Below are positions 1-4,219 of a stretch of DNA of 38,165 bases, one piece after another. The position numbers and the translations under genes were made by a program. The stretch lies in NCBI GenBank assembly GCA_015492645.1, contig WGER01000035.1, positions 1-38,165 of the forward strand, written 5' to 3'. Position 1 is the first letter of the stretch; each line of letters opens with the position of its first letter. The notes beneath the pieces were generated by a model. That model saw nothing but the letters and a program-made list of their open reading frames with translations. It was not told where the DNA came from and made no database searches. Source of the DNA: Nitrospirota bacterium. Lineage in GTDB: Bacteria; Nitrospirota; Thermodesulfovibrionia; Thermodesulfovibrionales; JdFR-85.

Positions 1-730
1 ATCTACTTATTTTTTGTAGACTCATCGGTGGGGGGAAAAATATCTTCCTTAATAGTTTATTGCGAAGTCTCTTGTTAGGGTTGACTATCTTAAATCCAGG
101 CTGAAATGACTCATCAACCTCAAGAAACTCAAGGGTCTCCTTATATACTCTTGCAGTATCTTTTTTGAAATCATCAAAGATAATTATATGAATTTTTTCT
201 CTATCAAAATGTCTCATAAATCGCTCAACTTGAACACTAAATCTTGCCATTTCTCGATAAAACAAAAACTCCACAGGCCACCTGCTTTCTGGAACTCTCA
301 ACCCTTTCTTACGGTCTCCCTCTGCCCTGAGGGCCTCTTCAAAGTCTTCAATATCTTCGTGTCCTGCAAATACCAACTGACTGTGTAAGGAATACATCAT
401 ATCCACAGGGTTCCTTAACATTATTATAATTCGTGCATCAGGGTTAAATTTTTTAATCTCTTCCGCTGCAACTTTAGAAAATAAGTATATAGCCGAAGCC
501 TCACCTACCCTTTTTTGGGTAGTTACATTTGAAAAGAGTTCAAGATATCGCTTTTCATCCCTTATATAATAATGGGAGTATAAATCTTTCGCAAAGAAAC
601 CAGGTTCTTTAGTATGTTCAGGCATATATACCTCAGGATGCTGTTTCAAGTACTCATACATAGCAGTAGTTCCACACCTTGGTGCACCCACGATGAAGAA
701 ATCTGGCTTTCTTATTGATCCGTCTTTCAT
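1..730 (-). CDS. Sulfotransferase family protein, 3' end cut off by the window
   Basis: Reading the minus strand from ATG at 730 gives an open frame of about 243 codons that runs off the window. The N-terminus (MKDGSIRKPDFFIVGAPRCG) carries the 5'-phosphosulfate-binding loop PRCGTT. A second conserved motif, RNPVDMMYS, near residue 105 matches the 3'-phosphate-binding region of PAPS-dependent sulfotransferases. The likely role is transfer of sulfate from PAPS to a glycan or other cell-surface acceptor. This is inferred from the fold and from the nearby glycosyltransferase and flippase. The acceptor cannot be read from the sequence. The gene is clearly more AT-rich than the dcw and rpo blocks, which suggests later acquisition. 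A GGAG sequence lies 9 nt before the ATG. The frame stays open for a short way upstream into a decayed regulator gene. Confidence 0.85.
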   Translation of the reverse strand, partial: MKDGSIRKPDFFIVGAPRCGTTAMYEYLKQHPEVYMPEHTKEPGFFAKDLYSHYYIRDEKRYLELFSNVTTQKRVGEASAIYLFSKVAAEEIKKFNPDARIIIMLRNPVDMMYSLHSQLVFAGHEDIEDFEEALRAEGDRKKGLRVPESRWPVEFLFYREMARFSVQVERFMRHFDREKIHIIIFDDFKKDTARVYKETLEFLEVDESFQPGFKIVNPNKRLRNKLLRKIFFPPPMSLQKISR

Positions 731-989
731 ATCCTCATTCTCCTTAATTACCTTTAACAGGGCCTTTTTAAGTGTCTCTCTATCACGTATGAGGAAATAA
801 GGACTGCATCATAATGGCTTCATCAACAGGTCTATAAGAACCACTCCCCTGCCCTCTCGTCTCAAGGTCACCTACCAGTTCAAGGCCTGTCTCCTGAAGC
901 GTAAGGTAGGCAATCTCGGCTACATCGTGTGAGCCAGAAACCACTATAAACACCCCGTTTTTCTGCTCTGAAAAGCCTGGCATACACAA
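731..989 (-). pseudogene. Decayed C-terminal fragment of a winged-helix/Rossmann regulator
   Basis: This is a broken paralogue of the C-terminal domain of the intact regulator at 1941-2534. The frame at 783-989 contains VAEIAYLTLQETGLELVG, nearly identical to VAEIAYLTLQETDLELAG in the intact protein. The match then breaks at an indel near GDLETRGQG (GVLDDERAG in the intact copy). Further on, a different frame resumes with HYDAVLISSYV, matching HYDAVVVASYV. A third frame, RDRETLKKALLKVIKENED, continues into the sulfotransferase start. No winged-helix N-terminus or operator is left. The 316 bases from 731 to 1046 hold this remnant and no intact gene. It sits directly upstream of the sulfotransferase, as the intact copy and the other remnant sit upstream of their own units. 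Confidence 0.8.
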
Positions 990-1046: not shown

Positions 1047-1481
1047 CTAACCAAGGTCTGCCTCAGCGTGTCCATCGGATTTTATAACCCTTTCTACAAT
1101 GGTCTTTATCTCACTGGCCCACTGGATTGCTCTTTCTGCCTCTTGAAGGCTGTATTCATCTAAGGGAATCCAGTCATCTGCTCCGTAGAAGGAGAGTTCT
1201 CTTTCCTTTCTTAAAGTTCTTGAAATTTCTTTAATCTTATTGATGTTGGTCTTTACTATATCCGGGAAGAGAGATAAATTCTTCTCTATAAATCTTGATA
1301 CATCATGAACTTTTGGCACCTCAAGTCCTGCATTCATTATCAGGGCTTTAAGAAGCAGTTCTACTACCTCCTGTGCCTCCCTTACCACATCCGGATAATC
1401 ACCCTTTTTTTTCAGAAATTCCAGCATCTCTAATCTTATGGAAGCCCTGTTAAGGTAGTCCTCTATAAGCCTCTTTCTCAT
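1047..1481 (-). CDS. HEPN domain protein, partner of the MNT nucleotidyltransferase
   Basis: This 144-residue, mostly helical protein has the PF05168-type HEPN layout: helix, then REAQEVVELLLKALIMNAG near residues 35-53, then KVHDVSRFIEKN, then a last pair of helices with an E/R-rich RKERELSFYG segment. HEPN proteins paired with MNT proteins are often the RNase toxin of HepT/MntA-type systems. The usual R-x4-6-H catalytic motif of that group is not visible here: no histidine follows the arginines near residues 90-100. RNase activity is therefore doubtful. The start ATG overlaps the upstream MNT stop by 4 bp (ATGA), so the two are translationally coupled and in one operon with the winged-helix regulator. 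Confidence 0.85.
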   Translation of the reverse strand: MRKRLIEDYLNRASIRLEMLEFLKKKGDYPDVVREAQEVVELLLKALIMNAGLEVPKVHDVSRFIEKNLSLFPDIVKTNINKIKEISRTLRKERELSFYGADDWIPLDEYSLQEAERAIQWASEIKTIVERVIKSDGHAEADLG

Positions 1482-1927
1482 GGGTGAATTCTCCAGTATT
1501 TTATGTCATTCAAGTAAAGTTCCTCTATTGAGCCCTTGTCTTTTAGTTCTTTTATCGTAGCCAATATCTCTTGAACTATCCCCTTTTCGTCATAGAGGAC
1601 TTTGAACTCATCAAAGACACCAAGATAAAAGGGACGGAACTCTCTGACTTCCTCCTCTGTAAATATAACAGGCGAAAGAAAAAGGCCAAACTCATCTTCC
1701 AAGGTATCACCAACTCCCCTGTAAAAATCCTTTATCCTCTGTCTGAAAGACTTCTCTGAACTCTTCAGTATGATAAACAGGTCCACATCGGAAGATACAG
1801 TTAAGTCTCCTCTTGCACCTGAGCCGAAAAGGACCACGGCAAGAAGGTCTGGACCGTAGAAGGCCATTATTCTGTCTGCCAGACTATGCAGTTGTGGCTC
1901 AACTCTTTTATATACAGCAGTGGCCAT
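1478..1927 (-). CDS. MNT-type nucleotidyltransferase domain protein
   Basis: This 149-residue protein has the minimal nucleotidyltransferase signature VVLFGSGARGDLTVSSDVDL (about residues 31-50), with the GS motif and the SDxD metal-binding pair. In HEPN/MNT pairs the MNT protein is normally the antitoxin and AMPylates the HEPN partner. Other members act as small-molecule nucleotidyltransferases. It begins 13 bp after the winged-helix gene and overlaps the HEPN gene by 4 bp, so all three look like one transcript. A longer C-terminal tail (residues 90-149) follows the catalytic core. The domain call is firm. The toxin-antitoxin role is inferred and less sure, because the HEPN partner lacks its usual catalytic motif. 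Confidence 0.88.
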   Translation of the reverse strand: MATAVYKRVEPQLHSLADRIMAFYGPDLLAVVLFGSGARGDLTVSSDVDLFIILKSSEKSFRQRIKDFYRGVGDTLEDEFGLFLSPVIFTEEEVREFRPFYLGVFDEFKVLYDEKGIVQEILATIKELKDKGSIEELYLNDIKYWRIHP

Positions 1928-1940
1928 CTCTCTCAGTCCT

Positions 1941-2534
1941 CTAAAAGATCTGCTTTATGTCCATTTCTGAGACCCCAGAGTTTTTTAACCTCTCAATAAT
2001 ATCCCTTCTCTTTACATAGGAGGCTACCACCACAGCATCGTAATGCAGGCTCTGGATTTCACTGAAAGGATAAATCCTGTAAGAGAAAAACTCCTCCCCT
2101 GCCCTCTCATCGTCAAGGACTCCTGCCAGTTCCAAATCTGTCTCCTGAAGCGTCAGGTAGGCGATCTCAGCAACCTCGTCTGAGCCTGCAAAGACCACGG
2201 TCCTTTTTCCCTCTGCCTCCAACTGCCTGAAGAGGTCCTTCAGGGTGGTCCTTGCATGCTGGTATATCTCGTTGTAGTGGTGGAGGAGTTTCAGGGCAAG
2301 GCGGCCCTTCTCTGCAAAGCCCTTTGGTGTAAGATAATAGGCATACCTTCTTGGTGGGATGTTCTTTACCGTGACATAGCCCTTTCTGATGAGGTTCTTC
2401 AGGTAGGAATTCACAAGTCCAAGTGCGATGCCCACCCGCCTGCTCAACTGCCTCTGGGTGAGGGGGTCTCCACTGGACAGGGCCTCCATCAGTTTCAGGA
2501 CCCTGTAGTCCTCAGTGCCTCCAGTATTGTTCAT
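1941..2534 (-). CDS. Winged-helix regulator with C-terminal Rossmann-like domain
   Basis: With the start at ATG 2534 the protein has 197 residues. Residues 8-72 form a winged helix: helix-turn-helix around LTQRQLSRRVGIALGLVNSY, then a wing with KGYVTVKNIPPRRYAYYLTPKG. Residues 109-197 look like a Rossmann-type nucleotide or sugar-nucleotide-binding fold with alternating strands and helices: RTVVFAGSDEVAEIAYL, ELAGVLDDE, HYDAVVVASYV. Regulators of this build are commonly found next to surface-polysaccharide genes. An upstream frame extends to 2570, but the -35 element lies in that stretch and the -10 follows it, so ATG 2534 is preferred. The predicted transcript starts at or within a base of this ATG and there is no Shine-Dalgarno sequence. 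A palindrome over the -10 and the start codon suggests autoregulation. It is the first gene of an operon with MNT and HEPN genes. Confidence 0.85.
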   Translation of the reverse strand: MNNTGGTEDYRVLKLMEALSSGDPLTQRQLSRRVGIALGLVNSYLKNLIRKGYVTVKNIPPRRYAYYLTPKGFAEKGRLALKLLHHYNEIYQHARTTLKDLFRQLEAEGKRTVVFAGSDEVAEIAYLTLQETDLELAGVLDDERAGEEFFSYRIYPFSEIQSLHYDAVVVASYVKRRDIIERLKNSGVSEMDIKQIF

Positions 2535-2570
2535 ATTTTGAACATAACACATAAAAGATAGAGATGTCAA
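2528..2570 (-). promoter_or_regulatory. Promoter and palindromic operator of the winged-helix operon
   Basis: On the minus strand, -35 TTGACA (2565-2570) is followed by an 18 bp spacer and -10 TATGTT (2541-2546). The expected transcription start, 7 nt on, is the A of the ATG at 2534, so the mRNA is predicted to be leaderless. A perfect inverted repeat, TGTTCA-N5-TGAACA (2528-2544), covers the -10 and the start codon. It is well placed for repression by a dimeric regulator, most simply the encoded winged-helix protein. The same module recurs at 4141-4183. Confidence 0.75.
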
Positions 2571-2677
2571 TCTACCGGCCCGGCTTTGCCGTTAGACTTT
2601 TCGGTCAATAACTTATAGTAATAAGAGGCAGGGGCAGGAGTTAGAGAGATAACAAAGTATATATTGTTTTTGTCCCT

Positions 2678-2721
2678 TCTGACTTGTCCCTCATTTCAAG
2701 GTCCTGAAGTAGGAAGTCAGA
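2678..2721. repeat. Imperfect inverted repeat between flippase and regulator genes
   Basis: An 8 bp perfect outer stem (TCTGACTT at 2678-2685 with AAGTCAGA at 2714-2721) encloses an imperfect inner stem with CCT/AGG and TTCA/TGAA pairings. It lies in the 212 bp gap downstream of the flippase stop and upstream of the regulator promoter. It could form a 3'-end structure for the flippase transcript. It lacks a T-run on either side, so it is not a standard intrinsic terminator. Apart from the regulator's promoter, I see no gene or other signal in the gap. Confidence 0.4.
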
Positions 2722-2746
2722 AATCGTGTCAGAATTTTCTCTGTTT

Positions 2747-4066
2747 TTATTCACCTGTCCTCCATACCTTCAATCTCCTTAAATCACCCAGGGCAGTGGT
2801 ATATAGCCCAAGCCTCTTTCTGACAAACCAGGCCATAACCAGATTCCATGTTGCCATACTTATTGCCGTGGCCACTGCTGCACCATTCATTGACCACCTG
2901 GGGATCAATAGAAGGTTCAACACTACATTCACAACAGCCCCTATACCAAGTCCCAGAGAGGCGTCCCTTTCATACCCTGTCATTATAAGGATCAGACCAA
3001 CAGAGCCAGCCGCGATGTTTATCACCTGTCCAGCACAGAGTATGGCAAGCGCATCTGCACCTGCTGTAAACTCCTCCCCATAGAGCATCAGAAACCACCT
3101 GCCAAACATGATTAAGATGATTGCGACTGGTAATGAGAAAAGCAGGATCAAGCGGGCTGTATGGGTGATCTCCCTCTGGAGGAGGTCTTTCTGTCCTGAA
3201 TGATACAGCCTTGAGATAATAGGTCCGAGCGAGGTATTCACTGAAAGGAGGACAAACGGGACAAGGGAGGCCCCTGCTGAGGCAACCGTGTAGATTCCCA
3301 CAACCCTTGCCTCTTTCATCGCACCGAGCATCACTATGTCTGTCCTTGAGTTTATAAACCCCATGCCTGTCAACAGTAGAAGTGTGAGGCCACTCTTGAG
3401 CCACTTTTTTACATGATACTCCGGGGCAACACCACTCAGGCCTTCTGGAAGGTATCTGTATAAAAGGAAAGACACAATTACCGTTGCCACAAACATCGCA
3501 GAGAGATTGAAGAGTATCACACTTATCGGCTGGATCGTGTCACGACTTACAATATAGAAAAGGAGTATCAAACCTATAAAGATGGTCGGCTGTAAAAGCA
3601 ACTCAGGAACCTGTGCAATAACAACCCTTTGAAGCCCCTTCAGTATACTCCGATTTACCGCTGTGATGGATATCAGGGGCAAAAGGACGATAGCAACAGC
3701 GAATGCCTCCAACTTCTCTGATGAACCGGTGTGAAAATACCTGTAGAGAAACACCATCATCATAATCACGGCAGAGGAGATCAGCACCGTGCCCCAGGCA
3801 AAACGGATCAGACCCTTGAGGCCTGACCACTCTGACCTTGAAGAGAAGACCGATACCTCTCGAATCAAAAGGCTTTCAAGACCCATTATTGAAGGGATGC
3901 TCAGTATATAAACCCAGGCCAATGCATAGGAATACACACCCAGACCCTCTGCCTTAAGTAACCTCGCAAGGATCAGACTGAGTAGAAAACTCAATCCCGT
4001 GGAGGAGACCTTCAGAAAGAGTGTCCCTGCTGCCCCTCTTATAAGGGTCTGCCTCAGTGATCTCAT
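2747..4066 (-). CDS. Wzx-like polysaccharide/lipid-linked oligosaccharide flippase
   Basis: This 439-residue, very hydrophobic protein has about 12-14 predicted membrane segments in pairs. It starts with RSLRQTLIRGAAGTLFLKVSSTGLSFLLSLILARLL, as is typical of the MOP superfamily (RfbX/Wzx, MurJ-like). The late segment with GYERDASLGLGIGAVVNVVLNLLLIPRWSMNG is the usual Wzx pattern. The expected job is moving undecaprenyl-linked glycans across the inner membrane. With a GT4 glycosyltransferase upstream and a sulfotransferase downstream it fits a surface-glycan locus, though the cluster here is small and a polymerase is not seen. ATG 4066 lies 6 bp after the stop of a 24-codon regulator remnant, with only a weak AGGGTG ahead of it, so translation is probably coupled to that short frame. 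Confidence 0.88.
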   Translation of the reverse strand: MRSLRQTLIRGAAGTLFLKVSSTGLSFLLSLILARLLKAEGLGVYSYALAWVYILSIPSIMGLESLLIREVSVFSSRSEWSGLKGLIRFAWGTVLISSAVIMMMVFLYRYFHTGSSEKLEAFAVAIVLLPLISITAVNRSILKGLQRVVIAQVPELLLQPTIFIGLILLFYIVSRDTIQPISVILFNLSAMFVATVIVSFLLYRYLPEGLSGVAPEYHVKKWLKSGLTLLLLTGMGFINSRTDIVMLGAMKEARVVGIYTVASAGASLVPFVLLSVNTSLGPIISRLYHSGQKDLLQREITHTARLILLFSLPVAIILIMFGRWFLMLYGEEFTAGADALAILCAGQVINIAAGSVGLILIMTGYERDASLGLGIGAVVNVVLNLLLIPRWSMNGAAVATAISMATWNLVMAWFVRKRLGLYTTALGDLRRLKVWRTGE

Positions 4067-4072
4067 CTCACC

Positions 4073-4147
4073 CTATATTTCCCTCAATGGAGAGTTCCCG
4101 AGTCTCCTCAGGACCCTGTAGCCTTCAGCCTCGCTGTCTTTGTTCAT
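4073..4147 (-). pseudogene. 24-codon N-terminal remnant of the winged-helix regulator, now a leader ORF
   Basis: From ATG 4147 the frame reads MNKDSEAEGYRVLRRLGN and ends at TAG (4073-4075) after 24 codons. It aligns with the start of the intact regulator (MNNTGGTEDYRVLKLMEA), and a 14-base stretch around YRVL is identical in both copies. The rest of the gene is missing. The promoter, operator and start codon are kept in the same arrangement, and the flippase ATG follows 6 bp after the stop. The remnant may therefore survive as a leader peptide that couples translation to the flippase. That role is inferred. Confidence 0.7.
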
Positions 4148-4183
4148 TTTTTGAACATAACATAAGTACAGAAAACAAGTCAA
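4141..4183 (-). promoter_or_regulatory. Promoter and palindromic operator of the flippase unit
   Basis: On the minus strand, -35 TTGACT (4178-4183), an 18 bp spacer and -10 TATGTT (4154-4159) place the transcription start at the A of ATG 4147. The perfect inverted repeat TGTTCA-N5-TGAACA spans 4141-4157 and covers the -10 and the start codon. Every distance matches the module at 2528-2570, while the spacer sequences mostly differ. That points to selection on the sites rather than simple recent copying. Confidence 0.75.
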
Positions 4184-4190
4184 AGGAGAG

Positions 4191-4219
4191 AAAACCTGCA
4201 CTTACGACGTGCAGGTTTT
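4191..4219 (-). terminator. Intrinsic terminator at the end of the glycosyltransferase gene
   Basis: An 11 bp stem, AAAACCTGCAC (4191-4201) with GTGCAGGTTTT (4209-4219), encloses a 7-nt loop. On the minus strand it ends in TTTTCTCTCC. The glycosyltransferase stop codon (TAA, 4202-4204) lies in the loop, so the last codons form half the stem. It stands just upstream of the flippase -35 box and separates the two transcripts. Confidence 0.75.

Follow-up and report, generated by a model that had tools for sequence, protein, structure and literature searches.

A predicted operator on the start codon of a MarR_EPS-type regulator recurs ahead of a flippase unit in a Nitrospirota genome

We analysed a 38,165-nucleotide stretch of DNA (the window) from a Nitrospirota bacterium in which a polysaccharide-cluster regulator gene begins inside a palindrome, and in which the same promoter and palindrome precede a flippase gene. 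The best explanation of the whole, which we consider likely, is that the regulator binds GTTCA-N5-TGAAC, represses its own gene and, following a duplication, sets the expression of both units as a single protein. Judged by sequence comparison, the predicted start-codon operator is the rule for this regulator family across phyla. The results supply a regulator family annotated in many environmental bacteria with a predicted operator, an exact promoter geometry and a target list, and provide an unusually clear case of selection at the DNA level shaping the first residues of a protein.

Results

An initial annotation of this DNA had described two sites of identical layout and proposed counting the palindrome across the genome and comparing it among relatives. 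Both sites were exact palindromes with promoters (Table 1). In the 2.43 Mb genome (G000), TGTTCA-N5-TGAACA occurs exactly twice, as TGTTCATATTTTGAACA at site 1 and TGTTCATTTTTTGAACA at site 2; both copies lie in promoters, so the palindromes are not scattered at random. Read on the minus strand, the sites (TTGACATCTCTATCTTTTATGTGTTATGTTCAAAATATGAACA and TTGACTTGTTTTCTGTACTTATGTTATGTTCAAAAAATGAACA, respectively) run TTGACA or TTGACT, 18 bp, TATGTT, CAAAA[T/A] and ATGAAC, with the first base of the -35 at 2570 and 4183 and the ATG, at 2534 and 4147, within the right half-site of the palindrome. A promoter scan ranked site 1 top (10/12 consensus) and gave site 2 9/12, with an extended -10 TG in both. 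The boxes are kept while the spacers differ, as had been claimed: the operators are identical at 16/17 bases and the 18-bp spacers at only 8/18, with the -35 at exactly 18 bp in each. Site 1 does precede an intact regulator gene, the start codon of which is inside operator 1, and the geometry of promoter 1 is kept in relatives.

Nine further copies with one mismatch are present in the genome, each within an ORF and without promoter context, which argues against a larger regulon there. Since only two exact copies exist, the regulon in this genome may comprise just the two sites. A chance origin of the pair was rejected in view of the exact copies, the matching promoters in both and the relatives.

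Table 1. Features of the window discussed in the text, by position.
Feature	Position	Strand	Details
Sulfotransferase	1..730	-	cut by window edge; last gene of ancestral operon
C-terminal remnant of a further regulator copy	836..935	-	82% DNA identity; ahead of sulfotransferase
HEPN protein	1047..1481	-	PF05168 3.1e-19; partner of nucleotidyltransferase
MNT-type nucleotidyltransferase	1478..1927	-	starts 13 bp past regulator stop
Regulator, 197 aa	1941..2534	-	MarR_EPS-type winged helix, long helix, Rossmann-like C-terminal domain
Operator 1, TGTTCA-N5-TGAACA	2528..2544	-	overlaps -10 and regulator start codon
Promoter 1	2541..2570	-	-35 TTGACA 2570-2565, 18 bp, TG-T-TATGTT 2546-2541
Oligosaccharide flippase (Polysacc_synt), 439 aa	2747..4066	-	PF01943 1.5e-19
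24-codon remnant of first regulator copy	4073..4147	-	mini-ORF begins in operator 2
Operator 2, TGTTCA-N5-TGAACA	4141..4157	-	exact palindrome
Promoter 2	4154..4183	-	-35 TTGACT 4183-4178, 18 bp, extended -10 TATGTT 4159-4154
Terminator-like hairpin	4191..4219	-	11 pairs; parts upstream glycosyltransferase unit from promoter 2

The gene content of the window suggests how the two sites arose. In reading order it consists of operator 2, the 24-codon remnant, the flippase, operator 1, the regulator, the nucleotidyltransferase, the HEPN protein, the C-terminal remnant and the sulfotransferase. The initial annotation had taken site 2 to precede a remnant of the regulator gene fused to the flippase. 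The remnant is genuine, with 84% DNA identity to the intact gene across 57 bp and the translation MNKDSEAEGYRVLRRLGNSPLREI followed by a stop; the fusion is not, as that stop falls 6 bp before the flippase ATG. A relative in the same family (G004) has the order operator, regulator, flippase (64% identical to that of the window) and sulfotransferase (41%), and one in the same genus (G001) has the same order at 28% and 30%. The flippase is the next gene after the regulator in these two genomes and in G025 and G118. By this comparison, the predicted ancestral unit is operator, regulator, flippase and sulfotransferase, a single operon in relatives. As the flippase is second in the regulator's operon in same-genus and same-family relatives, site 2 would be the old promoter of the operon, with the regulator shortened behind it. 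With the first regulator copy truncated and the intact copy carrying its own operator, the simplest account would be that the regulator was duplicated, the first copy was mostly lost and a single operon was thereby split into two units that share an operator. The core of the earlier proposal, one regulator acting through one operator on itself and the flippase, thus finds good support in the comparison, given the operator in 29/29 homologs (below) and the flippase as next gene in relatives.

A second, independent truncation was observed in another genome (G065:C82:3029-3071, loci L121/L227), where the truncated regulator MNSDKASVEFL, ending in a stop, lies behind an intact promoter-operator, with a NusG paralog and an MNT-HEPN pair downstream; an intact copy is found elsewhere in that genome.

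The winged helix of the window regulator matches TIGR04176 (MarR_EPS; E 1.5e-17) with 63.6 bits, under the curated cut-off of 88 bits, so by curated score the protein is not a member but a distant relation that shares the HTH. It does show a MarR_EPS trait, the polysaccharide-cluster setting, with a flippase, a glycosyltransferase and a sulfotransferase nearby, and its relatives are placed likewise. The Rossmann-like domain that had been claimed is real by structure prediction and makes up ~85 residues at the C-terminus, with an AlphaFold pLDDT of 91 for the whole regulator and 96 for the C-terminal domain folded alone. It was folded alone because a Foldseek search with the whole protein returned O-methyltransferases and MarR proteins that superposed poorly. 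On its own, the domain matched an uncharacterised Clostridium protein, Rex, UDP-quinovosamine 4-dehydrogenase and sugar-nucleotide N-acetyltransferases. A Pfam search on the domain returned nothing usable, the domain being absent from Pfam, and its best named sequence match was NeuD/PglD (TIGR03570, E 0.0056, 16 bits against a cut-off of 161). The dinucleotide-binding motif GxGxxG is absent, with Gx[DG]E[VI]AE (GxDEVAE) as the conserved loop. Because the domain resembles NeuD/PglD in sequence and Rex and sugar-nucleotide enzymes in fold, a nucleotide sugar or a dinucleotide is a plausible ligand. This is a guess, since the closest folds include both sugar-nucleotide acetyltransferase domains and NADH-sensing Rex and GxGxxG is lacking.

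We compared the site across related genomes, using a protein search of 101 genomes that was blind to the promoter and yielded 29 full-length homologs with readable upstream DNA. The palindrome GTTC-N7-GAAC is present in every one of the 29, and the start codon begins at its tenth base. Among five homologs read later, four keep the palindrome; in the fifth (G024) its left half is degenerate. In this family, GTG stands in place of ATG where the half-site is GTGAAC. A tandem class (11/29) has a second palindrome that abuts the first, within codons 3-7. Codon 2 is AAC in 29/29, compared with 90/211 (43%) of the other asparagines in these genes, and the valine at codon 3 of the tandem class is GTT in 11/11 versus 88/314 elsewhere; the rows are related, not independent, and no probability is attached to these counts. 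Even families far apart from one another avoid the synonymous alternatives. The invariance of codon 2 argues for a constraint on the DNA and not on the protein alone. A simple single origin of the tandem operator was not upheld: the tree needs at least three label changes, which may be one gain and two losses.

The same architecture was recovered from searches that began with the DNA. Across 396 genomes of the phylum, TTGAC-N17..23-GTTCA-N5-TGAAC gave ~75 matches versus 6 for the reversed control, and among 69 loci fetched from the phylum list, window excluded, the regulator starts in the palindrome in 59 and 16-55 bp beyond it in 3. TTGACA-N18..20-WTGTTCA-N4-ATGAAC matched 65 times in 84,980 species, with a regulator homolog beginning at that ATG in 51; the remaining 14 are near the ~11 of 65 expected by chance, by our own arithmetic from base counts. 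The hosts are Nitrospirota, Nitrospinota, Thermodesulfobacteriota, Myxococcota, Deferribacterota, Omnitrophota, Elusimicrobia and a Rhodospirillaceae bacterium. At one locus (L035, G074:C75, just upstream of 172900) the start-codon operator is accompanied by a further GTTC-N7-GAAC immediately upstream of the -35.

No Shine-Dalgarno precedes the start in any of 57 non-redundant homologs, and the first T of the -35 lies 35-37 nt from the start codon in 52 of the 54 that have a TTGAC -35. An in-frame stop occurs within 45 nt upstream of the start in 41/57. As this geometry leaves no space for a leader or a Shine-Dalgarno, we infer that the regulator mRNA is probably leaderless, starting at or beside the A of the ATG.

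Short homologs without the Rossmann domain have GTTCA-N5-TGAAC 9-442 bp upstream in 13/14 (dinucleotide shuffles, 0.013), a property found here and outside the curated TIGR04176 definition. The operator therefore goes with the winged helix. Besides these 14, a short homolog in G003 scored 147 bits, which makes it a true MarR_EPS under the curated cut-off, and in that genome a promoter-operator stands ahead of an RfaH-like gene, followed by MarR_EPS. Possible targets in trans were found in three genera of one family (G149, G158 and G166), where a second promoter-operator of the same geometry precedes a GDP-mannose dehydratase (gmd) operon without a regulator gene; the G149 gene was scored.

Several of the short homologs have GGCGGTAGC between operator and gene, which is the core of ops, the RfaH recruitment element (PMC7593976). 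In 130 site loci, which include some duplicates between collections, GGCGGTAGC was counted 28 times on the operon strand and not once on the opposite one; the reversed word was counted 6 times. It lies ~100 bp after the regulator or after the operon's second gene; many relatives have an UpxY/RfaH-like NusG paralog in that second place. At these loci (L130, L132, L133, L137, L139, L142, L144, L147, L150-L153 and others) the ops-like element, [TC]GGCGGTAGCC[TC]G, thus follows the regulator or follows the NusG paralog in polysaccharide operons of bacteria beyond the usual RfaH hosts. A search of the window's own genome for ops gave no match, and the only NusG paralog there (C49:1266-1925, L261) has no operator and is flanked by a histidine kinase and a sigma54-type response regulator. 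On these grounds, ops/RfaH control was rejected for the window genome.

Discussion

In the mechanism that we favour, GTTCA-N5-TGAAC would be the operator of the MarR_EPS-type regulator, and a dimer bound there would cover the DNA from the -10 to the third codon, so that polymerase would be blocked. The regulator gene, leaderless and with the right half-site as its first codons ATG AAC, would in this way repress itself. After the duplication, the copy before the flippase would have shrunk to a leaderless mini-ORF of 24 codons that retained the promoter-operator, with the intact copy and its own operator now between flippase and sulfotransferase. One protein would then lower its own and flippase expression until released by a signal, presumably one sensed by the Rossmann-like domain. 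Because the mini-ORF stops so close to the flippase ATG, ribosomes starting leaderless on the mini-ORF could pass on to the flippase by translational coupling. Repression of the regulator itself and of the flippase is the most likely mode of control; the position of the sites, taken alone, may also be compatible with activation. In the tree, a long branch (0.74) leads to the window regulator, so its DNA specificity may have drifted.

It is also conceivable, though we think it unlikely, that site 2 is a decaying relic left by the duplication, with an operator that looks intact only because the event was recent, and that the flippase is driven otherwise or constitutively. The remnant is still 84% identical over its first 57 bp, which may point to a recent event; the second remnant marks the region as rearranged, and the window regulator is fast-evolving. 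Yet the -35 of site 2 is kept at exactly 18 bp despite a largely different spacer, operator 2 is nearly identical to operator 1, and a terminator-like hairpin lies ahead of promoter 2, in a scan that gave only ~2x the matches in shuffled sequence. With such a hairpin upstream, the flippase would need a promoter at site 2.

Operon genes need not encode their own regulator, and the palindrome could be bound by another protein, such as a global factor, with the regulator gene merely one of its targets. This is improbable in our judgement, as the palindrome tracks the regulator family across phyla, whether the protein is long or short, and is almost missing from one family (f29), with matches in only 2 of its many genomes. 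We give hardly any credence to the symmetry acting in RNA, as a 5'-end hairpin controlling translation in place of a DNA operator. The second palindrome of the tandem class does lie wholly inside the transcript, but in the single-site class, the window included, the left half falls within the -10 box, outside what this promoter transcribes, and before short MarR_EPS genes the site is mostly 92-442 bp upstream.

Repression by the regulator through a start-codon operator can be set beside several known systems. Rex combines a winged helix with a Rossmann NADH sensor, and the window protein has the same domain order (AlphaFold and Foldseek; C-terminal model versus 3wg9, E 7.7e-4). It differs in the missing GxGxxG, the operator and the gene neighbours, so the likeness is in fold only. 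The N-terminal domains of NeuD, PglD, PerB and VioB are similar through the weak TIGR03570 match and the folds 4eaa, 4m99 and 7txp; unlike them, the window protein scores far under the cut-off and has no acetyltransferase domain. The repressor genes of lambda cI and Tn1721 tetR are reported to be translated from leaderless mRNA, as we predict for the window regulator. Leaderless genes have likewise been reported for the repressor CvkR (PMC9938897) and for CrtR, a MarR-type regulator of carotenoids (PMC5401885). All four belong to protein families unrelated to the window regulator, CrtR being MarR-type but controlling carotenoids. To our knowledge, none of them has a start-codon-bearing operator conserved across phyla.

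The closest comparison is with MarR_EPS itself. The winged-helix region (58/58 aligned members match), the cluster setting and the palindrome upstream of short homologs are held in common, whereas the window protein scores below the cut-off and has the additional Rossmann-like domain. The family seems functionally unstudied, the name having been applied to an up-regulated gene (PMC10599003). We found no published description of the start-codon operator arrangement in the open literature under the family name, TIGR04176, leaderless autoregulation or Nitrospirota polysaccharide regulation, and it has apparently not been described before.

Many relatives, with an UpxY-type NusG paralog second in the operon and the ops core, resemble RfaH/ops and UpxY/LoaP systems; the window, lacking both, does not. 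The pairing of an UpxY/RfaH-like factor with the ops core outside the usual hosts makes surface-glycan control in Nitrospirota and their neighbours directly testable. More speculatively, and with rather less confidence than in the mechanism above, we suggest a multi-phylum regulon in which one DNA word would serve as -10 region, operator, transcription start, start codon and first residues of a glycan-precursor sensor. Operator symmetry would dictate the N-terminus (MN, or MNV[HQ]xxN with tandem operators), and repression would feed RfaH/ops-type antitermination of the same polysaccharide operon.

The MNT-type nucleotidyltransferase of the window is probably co-transcribed with the regulator. 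Together with the HEPN gene it forms a pair (1047-1927) that also adjoins family regulators at three other loci (L116, L117 and L121), and that may be a toxin-antitoxin or defence pair carried along in the cluster.
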